64,000 nt of DNA from Hyphomonadaceae bacterium (GTDB lineage Bacteria > Pseudomonadota > Alphaproteobacteria > Caulobacterales > Hyphomonadaceae): assembly GCA_022844345.1 (NCBI GenBank), contig JALHLU010000001.1:186001-250000 (forward strand), given 5' to 3'. Every line of letters starts with the position of its first letter. Position 1 is the first letter of the stretch. Both the position numbers and the translations under genes were made by a program. The notes below the pieces were generated by a model. That model had not been told where the DNA came from. It made no database searches and saw nothing but the letters and a program-made list of their open reading frames with translations. Shown one piece after another: positions 17,895-26,040 of this stretch.

Positions 17895-19049
17895 TCACAG
17901 GAACCCGCGAAGGGTCATATCGTTCGCGCGGTTGAGGTGTACAGCCATTAATAGCCCAAAACCTATCATGACGGTGACAATAGCCGTGCCGCCATACGAG
18001 ATCAGCGGCAAGGGTATGCCCACGACGGGCAGGAGGCCTATGACCATTCCGATGTTGATCGCGACGTAGAGCATCAGGGTCACCACGAAGCCTGATGCCG
18101 CGAGAGACCCGAACGAACTTCGCGATGCCCCCGCGATGATCATGCCCTGCACGATGGCGATGGCCCAGGCGGCCAGCAGGACGACAGCTCCGGCAAAGCC
18201 GAATTCTTCCGCGATGATCGTGAAAATGAAGTCGGTGTTCTGCTCGGGGATGTATTCGAGCTCCTTCTGGGCGCCTTCCATGAAGCCCTTGCCGGCAAGG
18301 CCGCCGGAACCGATGGCGATCAGTCCCTGCTGCAGCTGGTATCCGGCGCCAAGCGGATCAGCATCGGGATTGAACATCGTCATCACCCGCTCGCGCTGAT
18401 AGTCGTGCAGGCCGAAGAAATAGACCACCGGCGTAAGGGCGGCGACCAGGAGGAGGATCCCGCCCACCACGCGCAGACTGATGCCCGCGAAGAAGATAAC
18501 CCCGCAGCCAGCGCCCAGGATCATCAACGAGGTGCCAAGATCCGGCTGCACGAGCACGAAGCCGACGGGGATTGCGACCATCACGAAGGCGACAATGTGA
18601 ATCCAGAGTTCGGAGCGGCCAGCCGCGAACATCTGATGATAGAAACGCGCGAGCGCCAGCGGCACAGCGATCTTCATCAGCTCTGACGGTTGGAGCGTCA
18701 GCGGGCCGATCGTCAGCCAGCGCTGCGAGCCGTTGACCACATTGCCCGCCACCTCGACAAGCAGGAGCAGCACAAGACCGATGCCGTAGCCCGGATAGGC
18801 CAGCGCCGCCCACAGCCGCAAAGGCAGCAGTGCGACGGCCAGCATAACGCCCAGCATGAAGATGAAGCGCCACATGTGAGCGATCGCCATCGTGGCGTCG
18901 ATCTTCAGAAGACCCGTTTCAAGGTCGTGTGCACTCGATCCGGCAGAGAACAGGACAAGCGTTCCGAACACAGCCAGTGCAATGATCGTCAGCAGCAGAA
19001 ACCAGTGCAGCTGCGTCAGCTTGTAGAGGAGCGTGTCCTTCCGGATCAT
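17895..19049 (-). CDS. rodA: RodA, SEDS peptidoglycan glycosyltransferase
   Basis: Polymerises lipid II glycan strands in the elongasome together with PBP2. 384 residues, about ten membrane helices, and the conserved SEDS segments SQRWLTIGPLTLQPSELMKI and EFGFAGAVVLL plus PLPLISYGGTA near the C-terminus. Last gene of the mre operon, overlapping mrdA by four bases. Confidence 0.95.
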   Translation of the reverse strand: MIRKDTLLYKLTQLHWFLLLTIIALAVFGTLVLFSAGSSAHDLETGLLKIDATMAIAHMWRFIFMLGVMLAVALLPLRLWAALAYPGYGIGLVLLLLVEVAGNVVNGSQRWLTIGPLTLQPSELMKIAVPLALARFYHQMFAAGRSELWIHIVAFVMVAIPVGFVLVQPDLGTSLMILGAGCGVIFFAGISLRVVGGILLLVAALTPVVYFFGLHDYQRERVMTMFNPDADPLGAGYQLQQGLIAIGSGGLAGKGFMEGAQKELEYIPEQNTDFIFTIIAEEFGFAGAVVLLAAWAIAIVQGMIIAGASRSSFGSLAASGFVVTLMLYVAINIGMVIGLLPVVGIPLPLISYGGTAIVTVMIGFGLLMAVHLNRANDMTLRGFL

Positions 19050-21049
19050 GTCGGCTGCGCCGTCCCGTCAGCCGATGCGATATCGCGCGCTTTGGGCACG
19101 AAGGCCTTCTTGGCGCCTGGATCATAGCGAAGAGCGTGGGCAAGCAGGTCTTTCGCGATTGGCGCCGCGGTGGACGAGCCTGACACGCCGTGTTCGACCA
19201 CGACGGAAATTGCGTAGCGCGGATTTTCGGTTGGCGCGTAGGCGACGAACAGGGCGTGGTCACGCAAGCGCCAGGGTAGTTTGTCGTTTGATATCGCGCG
19301 TCCGCGCGCATCGCGCCGGCCCGAGAGGTCGATGACCTGCGCCGTGCCGGATTTGCCGGCCATGCGCGCGCCGGTATAGGGCGCGGGCAGCGTATTGTCG
19401 GGATCGAGCAGGCCCGAGCGCAGGGCCGTGCCGCCGCCTTCGGACGTCACGGCGAACATTCCGGCGCGAACCGCTTCGAGCACGCCCGGCTTGAACTCGC
19501 CCATCGGCACGATCGTGTTGTCCGGCACGCTCATACCGCTGACGACAATGTGCGGATCGGGCATGGCGGCGCCGCCTGCCACGCGCGCGGTCATCACGGC
19601 CAGCTCGAACGGGGTCGCCGTGACATAGCCCTGCCCGATGCCCGCACTGATCGTGTCGCCCGGATACCAGCGATCCTTGATGCGCGGGTGATTGAGCTTC
19701 CACTCATTGTTCGGCACGACGCCGGATTTGCCGCCCGTGAGGCCAAGCTCGTAGCGATGGCCGAGGCCGAAGCGCTTGGCGACCTTGGCGATCTCCTCGA
19801 TGCCCGTCTTTTCGGCGGCCCGATAGAAGTAGCAGTCGCACGACACCTGCAGGCCGCGGTGCATGTTCACCGTGCCGTGACCCTCGTGCTTCCAGCAGTT
19901 GTAGAAGCGATTATAGTACCAGGCCTTGCCCGGGCAGTGGACCGTTTCGTTCGGGGACATGGCGCCGGTTTCAAGCGCAGCTGCCGCAACCACCAGCTTG
20001 AAGGTCGAGCCCGGCGGATAAACGCCGTCATAGGCCTTGTGATAGAGCGGGTTGCGCTCGTCCTCGCGCAACGCCTTGTAAGGCGTGTTCGCAATGCCGC
20101 TGACGAAGAGATTTGGGTCCGGTGCGGGAGTAGACATCATGCAGATGACCTCGCCCGTGGCGATGTCGATCATCACGGCGCTGCCCGCTTCGGCGCCAAA
20201 GCGCTGGATCGCATAGTTCTGAAGTTCGGCATCCACCGACAGCACGACATCGACACCGGGCTTGCCGGCCAGGTCTTCGCTCGGCAGGCGGTCGATCACG
20301 CGGCCGGTGGCGTTCTGCAGCAGCCGCACCTTGCCTGGGTCGCCCTTCAGGGCCTGCTCGCCATAGGCCTCGATGCCCTGTTTGCCCACCCGCATGGCGG
20401 GATGCTTGTAGAGCCGGCGCACGGTGCCGACGCGCGCCTTGCCTTCGGGAGAATCCGCCGCCTGCCCGACACTGGCGAGCTCATGCTCGACCATGCGCTG
20501 GATGTCGGCCTCGTTGGCTTTCGCCACGTAGCCAATGGTGTGATAGAAGGCCGATTGCAGCGGATAGGATCGCAGCTCGCCAACCTCTGCGCTGATGCCA
20601 GCCAGTTCCGGCGCCATCACGTTGACCTGCGCGAACTCCTCCCAGGTGAGATCGTCGGCGATCAAGATATCGCGGTGGCCCGGCGGCGTCGTGGCGTCCT
20701 GCAGCAGCGTACGTTTCTTGGCTTCTGTCAGGCGCAGCAGGCGGCCAACCCGTTCGATCACGTCCGCAATCTCGTCGCGCGTCTTGCCGGCGACTTCGGG
20801 GCGCAGCGTGACGTAGAAGTTGCGCTTCGAGCTGGCGAGTTCGCGGCCGCTGCGGTCATAGATCGTGCCGCGATGCGGCGGCGCAGGTTCAAGCTTGATG
20901 CGCACCTCGCGCGCCTTGGTCTCGAATTCGGCCTGACGCAGCAGCTGCAGTTCCGCGAGCCGCGCGGTGAGACCGACGAGGACAACGCCGCCCGTGCCGA
21001 GGAAAATCATCCTGCGGGAGGGAAAAAGGTTTTTCCAGTCACGGTTCAT
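19046..21049 (-). CDS. mrdA: PBP2, elongation-specific peptidoglycan transpeptidase
   Basis: Class B penicillin-binding protein of 667 residues for lateral wall crosslinking. N-terminal membrane helix (about 13-33), pedestal region, then transpeptidase domain with SxxK in YPPGSTFKLV, SCD in LQVSCDCYFYR (the usual PBP2 variant of SxN) and KSG in AGKSGTAQV. Overlaps mreD and rodA by four bases each, so the stoichiometry of the elongasome is likely set by coupled translation. Confidence 0.95.
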   Translation of the reverse strand: MNRDWKNLFPSRRMIFLGTGGVVLVGLTARLAELQLLRQAEFETKAREVRIKLEPAPPHRGTIYDRSGRELASSKRNFYVTLRPEVAGKTRDEIADVIERVGRLLRLTEAKKRTLLQDATTPPGHRDILIADDLTWEEFAQVNVMAPELAGISAEVGELRSYPLQSAFYHTIGYVAKANEADIQRMVEHELASVGQAADSPEGKARVGTVRRLYKHPAMRVGKQGIEAYGEQALKGDPGKVRLLQNATGRVIDRLPSEDLAGKPGVDVVLSVDAELQNYAIQRFGAEAGSAVMIDIATGEVICMMSTPAPDPNLFVSGIANTPYKALREDERNPLYHKAYDGVYPPGSTFKLVVAAAALETGAMSPNETVHCPGKAWYYNRFYNCWKHEGHGTVNMHRGLQVSCDCYFYRAAEKTGIEEIAKVAKRFGLGHRYELGLTGGKSGVVPNNEWKLNHPRIKDRWYPGDTISAGIGQGYVTATPFELAVMTARVAGGAAMPDPHIVVSGMSVPDNTIVPMGEFKPGVLEAVRAGMFAVTSEGGGTALRSGLLDPDNTLPAPYTGARMAGKSGTAQVIDLSGRRDARGRAISNDKLPWRLRDHALFVAYAPTENPRYAISVVVEHGVSGSSTAAPIAKDLLAHALRYDPGAKKAFVPKARDIASADGTAQPT

Positions 21050-21534
21050 CGTCTGGCCACCCTGATGCTGGCCGGCAGGATCAAGAAACGGACGACAGGA
21101 TACAGAAGCGCCGTCATTATGAAATCACCCGTTAGCGCGTTTCGCGCAAATCCGGGATGGCCGGCGATGCTTCCCGCAATGGTGAGCGCGAGGCTGACCA
21201 CGATGAAACCGCCCAGCAGCGAAATGATCTCGGCGCTGATGACGCGGATCGGCGGCTGACGATCCCAGGCGACAAGCGCTACCGCATACGCGGCCAGAAG
21301 CGCCATCGGCCAGGCGCCGATGGGAGCCTCGCCCATATAGTCCATGGCTAGGCCGAGCAGGATCAGGCAGCCAGCGACCCAAATCGACAGCCCGAAGGAG
21401 GCAAGCGTCGCGGTCAGCCACAGGCCCGCAATGGGCCACCACGCACCCGACATGCCTACCTTCATGCCGTAGGCCGTGACCATCGCCGCGACCGCCGTAA
21501 GCATCAATACCCAGAGCCGCCAGGCCACCGTCAC
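21046..21534 (-). CDS. mreD: MreD, rod shape-determining membrane protein
   Basis: 162 residues with about five membrane helices and little polar sequence. MreD joins MreC and the MreB filament to RodA/PBP2. The sequence is weakly conserved as usual; the assignment rests on size, topology and position between mreC and mrdA, with four-base overlaps on both sides. Confidence 0.9.
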   Translation of the reverse strand: MTVAWRLWVLMLTAVAAMVTAYGMKVGMSGAWWPIAGLWLTATLASFGLSIWVAGCLILLGLAMDYMGEAPIGAWPMALLAAYAVALVAWDRQPPIRVISAEIISLLGGFIVVSLALTIAGSIAGHPGFARNALTGDFIMTALLYPVVRFLILPASIRVARR

Positions 21535-22520
21535 TGGGCGCCCCCCTGCCCGGCGGGAGGCGGCGGGGCAGCCGGCGGCGTGACGCCGGCGACCGCCGGC
21601 GAGGTGGTCGCGACCGGGGCCAGTTGGATGCCGACAGTACGAAGTGTGGGTTCGGTGTTTTCCTGCGGCAGACCTTCACCGAGGCGCGGCGCGGTTTCCG
21701 GCGAGGCGAAATCGGGCGGGGGCACAAGGCGCACGAAATCAACGCTGCCCTGGTCGATGGCCAGGTCGAGCCGCCATTCATCGCCGACCTTGCGGGCGGT
21801 TCCGACGCGCACGCCGAGCGGCATCTTGCCATCATCGCCCGACGTGACCCAGATCTCGCCGGGTACGATTTTGTCGGGCGTTTCCGGCTCGATCAGGCGG
21901 GCGCCGGTTCCATTGTCGCCCACAAGCAGGGCCCGGTCGCCCGAGCGCGTGCCCATAACCGGAATACGGCTGGCGAAGTCGGTCAGCATCAGGATGCGGG
22001 AGGTGTATTCGCCCACGCGGACGACACGCCCCACAAGACCGTTCTCGTTGACCACGGCAAAGCCCTCGCGAACGCCGTTGGCTGCGCCGGCATTGGCGAT
22101 CCGGCTGGCGGAGAACGGTCCGGTCTCTTCGGCCACGACGCGCGCCGTCACCGACTGGCCCTGCGTTTCGCCGACAAGGTCGAGGAGCCGCTCATAGCGC
22201 TCCATGCGGATCGCCATGGTCTCGGCGAGATCTTTCCAGCGCGTCAGGTCACGAACCTGCGCTTCAAGCTCTGCGATGCGCGCCTTGTCTTCCTCGCTGC
22301 CGCCAAGACCGAACAGGGACCAGCTGGTCACGCCCGATGCGAAGGTGGCGAGGCTGGCGGTGGTTCCATCCATTGAGCGGCGCGAGGCATCAATGCCCGA
22401 ACGGACGGCGGACGAGGTCTGGATTGCAAGCACGCCGACCATCGACAGGCCAAGCCCGACGACAACCGCCCGCGCGCCGGGGCGCGGTACACCGGATCGT
22501 CTGTGACCATACCAGGCCAT
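21531..22520 (-). CDS. mreC: MreC, rod shape-determining protein
   Basis: 329-residue bitopic periplasmic scaffold. A membrane helix (about 18-38) is followed by a coiled coil (about 75-112) and the two beta-barrel domains (ARVVAEETGPFSASRIANAGAANGV, then GLVGRVVRVGEYTSRILMLTD, are characteristic). The last 45 residues are rich in proline and alanine and probably disordered. Overlaps mreD by four bases; 51 bases separate it from mreB. Confidence 0.95.
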   Translation of the reverse strand: MAWYGHRRSGVPRPGARAVVVGLGLSMVGVLAIQTSSAVRSGIDASRRSMDGTTASLATFASGVTSWSLFGLGGSEEDKARIAELEAQVRDLTRWKDLAETMAIRMERYERLLDLVGETQGQSVTARVVAEETGPFSASRIANAGAANGVREGFAVVNENGLVGRVVRVGEYTSRILMLTDFASRIPVMGTRSGDRALLVGDNGTGARLIEPETPDKIVPGEIWVTSGDDGKMPLGVRVGTARKVGDEWRLDLAIDQGSVDFVRLVPPPDFASPETAPRLGEGLPQENTEPTLRTVGIQLAPVATTSPAVAGVTPPAAPPPPAGQGGAQ

Positions 22521-22571
22521 CGTGGCTCCTCGCGGACATCGCCGTCCTGCGCTTCAACCAGAGGAAGGCGA

Positions 22572-23654
<1,083 letters not shown>

Positions 23655-23959: not shown

Positions 23960-25615
23960 ATGACAGACACCCACGCTGCGGCCGAACCCGGACATTCCGG
24001 ACCCGGAAGGTTTGCCGCTTTCGGGCACCGGTCCTTCGTACTTTATTTCCTGGCCCGGCTGTCCACGACCTTCGGGGCGCAGATCCTGTCGGTCGCCGTG
24101 ATCTGGCACATCTACGACCTGACCAAGTCGGCGCTGTTCACGGGACTGGTGGGGTTGGTCCAGTTCCTTCCCCTCGCCCTGCTGGTGCTGGTGACTGGAA
24201 CGGTTGCGGATCAATTCGGCCGCAGGATGATCATGGGGCTGTCGATCGTGCTGGCGGCCGCTTGCGGGCTGGCCATGCTGGCGGCAAGCGTTCTGATGCC
24301 GGAGTTCCGGCATGGTCCATCGCACGAGGGCGCGATCATCCGTCCGGCTGAGGTGAGCTCGCTGGCAGGCGCGCCGGTCGTCGGGCCGTTCGACACCCCG
24401 GAGCCTGTAGAATTGGGCAGCCGGCTTTCGTTTCGGCTTCCGGCCGGGACCTTTACCGACCCGGACGGCGATACGTTGACATATTCGGCGGCGATGGCGA
24501 CGGGCGCGCCGCTCCCGCCCTGGCTCAGTTTCGATCCCGCAACGCAAACGCTGTCGGGCGTTGCCGGATTCGAGGATCGCGGAACGGTTCCGGTAAGGAT
24601 CACGGCGGTCGATCCCACAGGCGCAAGCGCAAGCGCGGACATCCGGGTGCATGCCGTCCAGTACACCGCAGCCTATGTGATGCTTGGCATCCTGGTGGTG
24701 TTCGGCATTGCGCGCGCCTTCCTTGGACCGGCCTCGTCCTCGCTGGTGGTCTCGCTGGTGCCGACCAAGGATTTCGCGAACGCCGTGACCTGGAACTCGT
24801 CGGCCTGGCAGGCGGCGACCATTGTCGGCCCGGCGGCCGGGGGGCTGCTGGTCGGACTCGCCCCGGATGTCGCGTATGGAACCGCGTTCGCATTCATGAG
24901 CCTGGGCGCGTTGCTCGTTTTCGTGATCCCCAGACCGCCCAAGGCGCCGCCGAAGGAACGCCCCACCCTCTCGAACATGCTCGACGGGTTCCGCTTCATC
25001 TGGAAGCAGAAGATCATTCTGGGAGCTGTCTCGCTCGACCTTTTCGCCGTGCTGATGGGCGGCGTGATCGCGTTGCTCCCGATCTATGCCGAGGAAGTGC
25101 TGAAGCTGGGACCGGCGGGCCTGGGCTGGCTCCGCGCGGCGCCGGGGATCGGCGCGATCTCTGTGGCCATCCTGCTCGCGAGCTTCCCGATCAGGGACCA
25201 TGCCGGGCACATCATGTTTGTCTGCGTCGCGCTGTTCGGCGCATTCACGGTGGTGTTCGGACTTTCGACTGTGGCGTGGCTGTCGATACTCGCGCTGATC
25301 CTGCTGGGTGCGGCCGACATGGTGAGCGTGGTGGTGCGCGAGACGCTGCTGCAGCTGTGGACGCCGGATGATGTGCGCGGGCGGGTGAATGCGGTGAACT
25401 CGGTGTTCGTGTCGGCCTCGAACGAGCTGGGCGAATTCCGCGCGGGCACGATGGCGCATGTGATCGGCGTGGGCGCTGTGGGCGCGGTGCCGGCGGTTGT
25501 TCTTGGCGGCGCTGGCGCCATTGTGGTGGCGGGCGCGTGGGCGTGGATGTTCCCGCAACTGCGCAAGGCGCGGCGGCTGGATGGGTCCGACGTCGAACTG
25601 CCGAAGCAGGGGTGA
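23960..25615 (+). CDS. MFS exporter with a cadherin/Ig-like domain inserted in its TM3-TM4 loop
   Basis: 551 residues from the ATG at 23960. The frame is open from 23873; no start has a good ribosome site. It is a major facilitator of the EntS-like branch (motif A as ADQFGRRMIMG, residues 83-93). TM1 to TM3 span about 25-112. Then about 120 residues (24299-24658) interrupt the transporter before TM4 at about 237. Residues 138-233 fit the dystroglycan-type cadherin/He_PIG fold: FTDPDGDTLTYSA, LPPWLSFDPATQTLSG, ITAVDPTGASASADI. Since motif A is cytoplasmic, this loop faces the periplasm. TM4-TM12 follow normally. Substrate unknown. It is followed directly by the EVE gene. Confidence 0.85.
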   Translation: MTDTHAAAEPGHSGPGRFAAFGHRSFVLYFLARLSTTFGAQILSVAVIWHIYDLTKSALFTGLVGLVQFLPLALLVLVTGTVADQFGRRMIMGLSIVLAAACGLAMLAASVLMPEFRHGPSHEGAIIRPAEVSSLAGAPVVGPFDTPEPVELGSRLSFRLPAGTFTDPDGDTLTYSAAMATGAPLPPWLSFDPATQTLSGVAGFEDRGTVPVRITAVDPTGASASADIRVHAVQYTAAYVMLGILVVFGIARAFLGPASSSLVVSLVPTKDFANAVTWNSSAWQAATIVGPAAGGLLVGLAPDVAYGTAFAFMSLGALLVFVIPRPPKAPPKERPTLSNMLDGFRFIWKQKIILGAVSLDLFAVLMGGVIALLPIYAEEVLKLGPAGLGWLRAAPGIGAISVAILLASFPIRDHAGHIMFVCVALFGAFTVVFGLSTVAWLSILALILLGAADMVSVVVRETLLQLWTPDDVRGRVNAVNSVFVSASNELGEFRAGTMAHVIGVGAVGAVPAVVLGGAGAIVVAGAWAWMFPQLRKARRLDGSDVELPKQG

Positions 25616-25620
25616 TGGTG

Positions 25621-26040
25621 ATGGCATACTGGCTGGTGAAATCGGAGCCGGACGTTTTCTCGTGGGATGACCTCGTGAAGGCGGGCAAGAGCGGCACGGC
25701 GTGGACCGGCGTGCGCAATCATGGCGCGAAGCTGCACCTGATGGCGATGAGACAAGGCGAGCGCGTGCTCTACTATCACTCGAACGCTGACAAAGCGGTG
25801 GTGGGCATCGCCGAGGTGGTGAAGACTGCCTATCCCGATCCGACAGCGACGAGCGGGCCGTGGGTGTCGCCGGATATCCGCGCCGTCGAGAAGCTGAAGA
25901 CGCCAGTGGCGCTGGCCGACGCAAAGCATGATCCGGTGCTGAAGGACATGGTGCTGGTGAACAACACGCGGCTATCCGTGCAGCCCGTGACCGAGGCGGA
26001 GTGGAAGCACATGTGCAAGCTGGGCGGCGTTAAAACCTGA
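25621..26040 (+). CDS. EVE domain protein
   Basis: 139-residue single-domain EVE protein (PUA-like fold), beginning MAYWLVKSEPDVFSWDDL as in the YTH-related bacterial family; conserved WTGVRNHGAKLHLMAMRQGERVLYYHS and VVGIAEVV follow. EVE domains bind modified nucleobases and are often linked to restriction of modified DNA, though solitary copies like this are common chromosomal genes. The ATGs at 25615 and 25621 are both possible; the first overlaps the MFS stop. Its 3' end overlaps the convergent ABC-F gene by 11 bases. Confidence 0.9.
   Translation: MAYWLVKSEPDVFSWDDLVKAGKSGTAWTGVRNHGAKLHLMAMRQGERVLYYHSNADKAVVGIAEVVKTAYPDPTATSGPWVSPDIRAVEKLKTPVALADAKHDPVLKDMVLVNNTRLSVQPVTEAEWKHMCKLGGVKT

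Follow-up and report, generated by a model that had tools for sequence, protein, structure and literature searches.

We have analysed a stretch of 64,000 nucleotides from a Hyphomonadaceae bacterium (assembly GCA_022844345.1, contig JALHLU010000001.1, positions 186,001 to 250,000), referred to here as the window and numbered from its first letter. It contains a gene for a predicted exporter of the major facilitator superfamily (MFS), in which a single domain of the Pfam family He_PIG is inserted between transmembrane helices 3 and 4 (TM3 and TM4). One further genome, UBA7672 (L022, a Hyphomonadaceae metagenome-assembled genome), carries the same insert. The features of the gene are as follows:

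23960..25615, + strand: MFS_3-family exporter gene, 551 aa, with one inserted domain (ATG start to stop; Pfam and AlphaFold2 (AF2) model)
24197..24235, + strand: motif A in the TM2-TM3 loop, residues 80-92 (from the sequence; marks the cytoplasmic side)
24296..24400, + strand: N-terminal part of the insert, residues 113-147, a linker that is probably flexible (predicted local distance difference test, pLDDT, below 50 at residues 119-155)
24401..24652, + strand: He_PIG / dystroglycan-type cadherin-like beta-sandwich, residues 148-231
24665..24757, + strand: TM4, residues 236-266, about 4 residues beyond the last strand (secondary structure of the full-chain model)
24851..24871, + strand: TM5-TM6 periplasmic loop, residues 298-304, shortened by the loss of 24 residues

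The exporter and its inserted domain

The protein matches three Pfam families: MFS_3 (PF05977, 6.6e-30), MFS_1 (1e-23) and He_PIG (1.4e-15, residues 149-228). Its MFS_3 score lies above the gathering score and the AF2 model has the MFS fold with 12 TM helices by our reading, which places it in MFS_3; the structure matches in the PDB included NorA and VMAT2. No NCBIfam model scored above its cut-off. The closest named ones, TIGR00900 (129.3 bits, cut-off 319.6) and EntS (122.9 bits, cut-off 324), mark a branch of MFS_3 from which the substrate is not transferable, and this subfamily label was rejected, given that both scores, which the insert may depress, are far below the curated cut-offs.

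Alignment to insert-free orthologues delimits the extra segment as residues 113-235 (24296-24664), and the insert of 24299-24658 proposed by an earlier, sequence-only reading falls within these borders. Searched alone against Pfam, the segment belongs to He_PIG (PF05345), with 61.9 bits and 8.3e-17 against a cut-off of 24, compared with 58.0 bits for the whole protein. The full-chain model shows TM3 at residues 88-112, seven strands between 148 and 231 and TM4 at 236-266, in agreement with the proposed position between TM3 and TM4. This model is moderate (mean pLDDT 67.2, with residues 119-155 and 231-233 below 50); the domain modelled alone reached a pLDDT of 94.5. The modelled beta-sandwich superposes on dystroglycan domains, and dystroglycan was also matched weakly (E 0.049) in a PDB search by sequence with the insert. 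Together with the Pfam match, the modelled sandwich supports the prediction that the insert folds as a He_PIG, dystroglycan/cadherin-like domain; both the structure prediction and the profile search that the sequence-only reading had suggested as checks thus came out in its favour. DxNDN and NDxP are the calcium linker motifs between cadherin repeats. Both are missing from residues 113-236 in the two carriers, so that the insert does not qualify as a calcium-linked cadherin repeat; NDxP occurs in 10 of 20 other aligned domain copies (alignments A2 and A3, with borders chosen by us).

Motif A is cytoplasmic in MFS proteins. It is indeed present where the earlier reading had seen it, with A83, D84, R88 and R89 invariant across 12 aligned orthologues, although its limits had to be renumbered from residues 83-93 to 80-92. 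Lysine and arginine outnumber aspartate and glutamate in the TM6-TM7 loop (4 vs 1) and at the C-terminus (5 vs 3), and the insert holds 7 against 14. The charge distribution and the cytoplasmic motif A are consistent with an insert that faces the periplasm, as had been claimed.

Two carriers and a reciprocal change of loops

The second carrier has 89% amino acid identity to the exporter over residues 4-551. Of the 15 genomes of the genus, all but G010 have an orthologue; two of these 14 genes contain the insert and 12 lack it. In the gene tree, the carriers form a 100/100 clade nested within an 11-row clade of support 97/98, on a stem branch of 0.097; their nearest neighbour, L003, has a weakly supported placement (86/63). 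The neighbourhood of the gene is given by two features of the window:

19046..23642, - strand: mreB-mreC-mreD-mrdA operon, divergent neighbour of the exporter (tblastn synteny; MreC by Pfam; mrdA, mreD and mreB are names that we take to apply)
25621..26040, + strand: EVE-domain gene directly downstream of the exporter, a conserved neighbour (Pfam EVE, 2.3e-42)

The gene order mrdA-mreD-mreC-mreB / MFS / EVE / ABC-F / leuA is common to 10 of 11 loci, as far as the loci extend; ABC-F was not found in L030, which has otherwise the same order, and the Paracoccaceae locus L032 has only the MFS gene in common. The shared gene order and the nested tree imply that the domain entered a resident gene, and that the gene did not come with the domain. 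By this nesting, the exporter appears to be a vertically inherited, single-copy gene that gained the domain in place in the common ancestor of the two species. A cell-wall role read from the mreBCD-mrdA neighbour was rejected, since the order of the genes is no different in relatives without the insert. The sequence-only reading had named a chimeric assembly as the result that would overturn it and had asked for homologues with the same insertion. The separate assembly of the second carrier answers both points with the same insert, junctions and neighbours, and the frame is open, without stops, in both genomes; an assembly or frame artefact is thereby refuted to a degree that leaves it practically no probability.

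Between the two carriers, the insert shows a nonsynonymous divergence (dN) of 0.166 and a synonymous divergence (dS) of 1.046 (dN/dS 0.159), and the rest of the gene shows 0.036 and 0.568 (dN/dS 0.064); amino acid identity is 77% in the insert and 94% in the flanks. Judged by these ratios, the insert is under purifying constraint, weaker than that on the core. The G+C content at third codon positions (GC3) is 0.75 in the insert versus 0.85 in the flanks, and this lower GC3 together with the higher dS would fit either a foreign origin or a different codon constraint. Identity is not even along the segment, with 23 of 35 residues shared in the N-terminal linker, 41 of 55 at residues 148-202 and 30 of 33 at residues 203-235; the conserved end is, in this comparison, the one that adjoins TM4.

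The loop between TM5 and TM6, counted between fixed anchors, has 10 residues in both carriers; with the same anchors it has 34 in 10 and 24 in two of the 12 insert-free congeners. In other rows it has 34 (L013), 23 (L012) or 10 residues (L015, L017, L018, L020 and L032). Because the carriers are nested, the 24-residue loss falls on the same branch as the gain of the domain, a coincidence of one event each that is suggestive of a link between them. As a separate observation, the extension present in the insert-free L003-L011, L013 and L014 is 24 residues longer than the loop of the outgroup rows, and L012, L016 and L019 have an intermediate form.

The core is otherwise conserved: both carriers differ at six of 303 core positions that are invariant in nine siblings (110, 240, 298, 301, 303 and 380), all six of which the model places at the periplasmic ends of helices. 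In four other sibling pairs, not all of them sisters, 3, 2, 1 and 1 of 295-306 positions differ, and by our reading of the helix limits these changes also occur away from the periplasmic face.

Source and rarity of the domain

The insert is the sole He_PIG match in its genome. In a family sample of 105 genomes, 15 had a relative of it. Outside the carriers (G000 and G008) there were 30 matches in the list, 21 of them, from six genomes, in frames of 2,024-5,051 aa, which bears out the statement of the sequence-only reading that such domains normally occur as repeats in large surface adhesins. The remaining nine depart from it: they are single copies in frames of 493-541 aa, mostly CCP_MauG-type lipoproteins and one sulfatase, and none of these nine, each inspected, is an MFS protein. 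The best family relatives lie in frames of 4,766 aa (G097) and 2,024 aa (G023), at 47% identity, and the best one from the phylum sample, among the matches listed, is an array in a 2,765-aa frame (G1082; 41-48%). The source is therefore likely to be a single repeat of an adhesin-type gene; no donor gene was found among the family, order, class and phylum genomes searched.

He_PIG was present in 90 of the 398 genomes of the order sample, where the frames of 500-620 aa among the matches listed were those of G000 and G008 and a four-repeat frame of G370. The class and phylum samples gave matches in 54 of 385 and 106 of 398 genomes. From these three samples, 35 small-frame stretches (17 + 7 + 11) were drawn. 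In 31 of them a frame matched the insert, none with more than one crude hydropathy segment, compared with nine for the exporter; L091 and L092 are MFS orthologues without insert, and the same frame test was negative for L120 and L121. Plasmids contributed 211 matching records, none of which covered 80% of the query, and no full-length insert-bearing relative was seen among them. Within the frames examined, an MFS protein with a He_PIG insert is rare. For the domain model, L079 was dropped as a weak match of 26 profile positions, and the viral-contig loci L097-L107 were used only for depth, leaving out L099, L101, L102, L105 and L106 (repeats or near-repeats) and the weaker domain matches of L097 and L103.

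Single He_PIG domains were also observed in lipoproteins. In other alphaproteobacteria (L080-L087 and L089), lipoproteins resembling outer-membrane efflux proteins of the TolC type have one near the C-terminus; Pfam, run on three of them, gave OEP and He_PIG in L080 and L086 and He_PIG without OEP in L083, so that the domain is also joined to the outer-membrane part of export systems. In Hyphomonadaceae, one He_PIG is joined to a di-haem cytochrome c peroxidase (CCP_MauG) in the lipoproteins L040-L044, L051 and L062, and to a sulfatase in L045 (Pfam was run on L040 and L045; the others were assigned by resemblance to L040).

Possible roles, and comparison with known transporters

With moderate confidence, we think that a resident MFS_3 exporter gained a periplasmic He_PIG accessory module at TM3-TM4 and, on the branch where this happened, lost a stretch of 24 residues between TM5 and TM6. 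The transport cycle would be unchanged. With a very short link to TM4 and a linker of about 35 residues to TM3, the domain would probably lie above the periplasmic opening of the N-terminal half, where it might dock a periplasmic protein or glycan, take over the role of the lost stretch at the periplasmic gate, or do both. The exchange of loops favours some contact with gating, and the solitary, separately folding nature of the domain favours docking. Several points weigh against this proposal. As only two genomes carry the insert, the gain and the loss each happened once and may coincide by chance. The longer stem branch of the carriers makes their higher count of core changes unremarkable in itself, and five of the six positions lie beside the two indels, where the alignment is most prone to error. 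The purifying selection might serve solely to maintain a soluble fold, and the moderate full-chain model does not establish the placement of the domain or the rigidity of its link to TM4. Moreover, no partner, substrate or co-inherited gene was found in this analysis. Lastly, the transporter PepT1, considered below, was unlike PepT2 stably expressed in its wild-type form alone, and not with an altered inserted domain (PMC4597091).

The same crowding of core changes at the indels, the loop loss on the same branch and the short, conserved link to TM4 would also suit a purely internal part, structural or allosteric, that takes the place of the lost stretch, helps to stabilise or gate the outward-open state and needs no partner. 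The hairpin of QacA offers a precedent (PMC10425836). We regard this as possible, if somewhat doubtful, given that the domain and the lost stretch differ in size and probably in fold and belong to different loops, that a single event is involved, and that the role of the stretch in the siblings is only presumed. Should the insert be instead a fragment of a He_PIG adhesin gene that arrived in frame in a permissive loop, is tolerated there as a passenger and merely folds, then its great rarity, its faster evolution and lower GC3 than the flanks, and the unchanged transport core would be expected; a dN/dS of 0.16, well below 1, the retention of fold residues, the survival of the insert through one speciation and the alteration of the TM5-TM6 loop on the same branch make this unlikely. 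A lectin-like tether, by which the domain would bind peptidoglycan or another periplasmic polysaccharide and anchor the exporter, seems more improbable still: the calcium linker motifs are absent, no carbohydrate-site residues were identified, and the mreBCD neighbourhood is identical in insert-free relatives. We retain the gain of an accessory module with the reciprocal loop loss as our preferred explanation.

The TM3-TM4 site is the N-terminal-bundle equivalent of the TM9-TM10 junction between three-helix repeats. At the latter, which joins the triple-helix repeats of the C-terminal bundle, PepT1 and PepT2 (SLC15, POT family) carry two Ig-like domains; they were the first MFS transporters for which a folded domain within the core was demonstrated, and a domain of similar size was pointed to in a further family, SLC22 (PMC4597091). 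The statement of the sequence-only reading that no example had been described was therefore too strong. Searches of open-licence papers showed, in the entries listed, no bacterial member of the MFS that carries a comparable insert. PepT1 and PepT2 are given as the only known transporters with a domain between TM9 and TM10, where the domains sit with the C-terminal bundle and an interaction with the N-terminal one was not observed (PMC8565842). Docking of trypsin has been proposed for these domains, and PepT2 without them keeps its KM (PMC4597091). The present exporter shares with these proteins an Ig-like beta-sandwich in an otherwise ordinary 12-TM MFS core, on the non-cytoplasmic side and at a three-helix-repeat junction. 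It differs in having one He_PIG domain at TM3-TM4 of a predicted bacterial exporter, instead of two tandem domains at TM9-TM10, in the C-terminal half of a eukaryotic importer. Comparing the MFS and domain families by name only, the two inserts are most likely convergent, and the exporter would be regarded as analogous to PepT1 and PepT2 by placement and fold class, not as their relative.

Other systems share single aspects. QacA, a bacterial DHA2 MFS efflux protein, also has an extra non-cytoplasmic element that affects efflux, its loop EL7; this is, however, a helical hairpin between TM13 and TM14 and not a folded soluble domain. The hairpin is needed for efflux, and grafting it from relatives together with EL1 restores activity (PMC10425836). 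In the bacterial MFS proteins Rv1410 and MHAS2168, a periplasmic extension has been proposed to work with a periplasmic partner, the lipoprotein LprG (PMC10576003), but these are TM11-TM12 helix extensions without an inserted domain, and serve mycobacterial lipid export. Giant adhesin-type proteins hold the same domain family, as arrays, in contrast to the single copy, without NDxP or DxNDN, of this polytopic membrane protein.

Folded domains within the MFS core are rare, and here a bacterial case occupies the pseudo-symmetric site. The insert is recent enough for insert-free sister species to exist, which provides a natural before-and-after pair, and near-identical exporters with and without the domain are a test bed for junction tolerance, partner recruitment and change of gating. 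We see in the insert-bearing form a rare natural example, in two species only, of a transporter that gained an outward-facing accessory domain as another loop was shortened. Tentatively, the exporter may have swapped a TM5-TM6 cap for a cadherin-like domain at the symmetry mate of the PepT1/PepT2 site, becoming partner-docked or domain-gated, and three-helix-repeat junctions might be general entry points for domains in MFS transporters.
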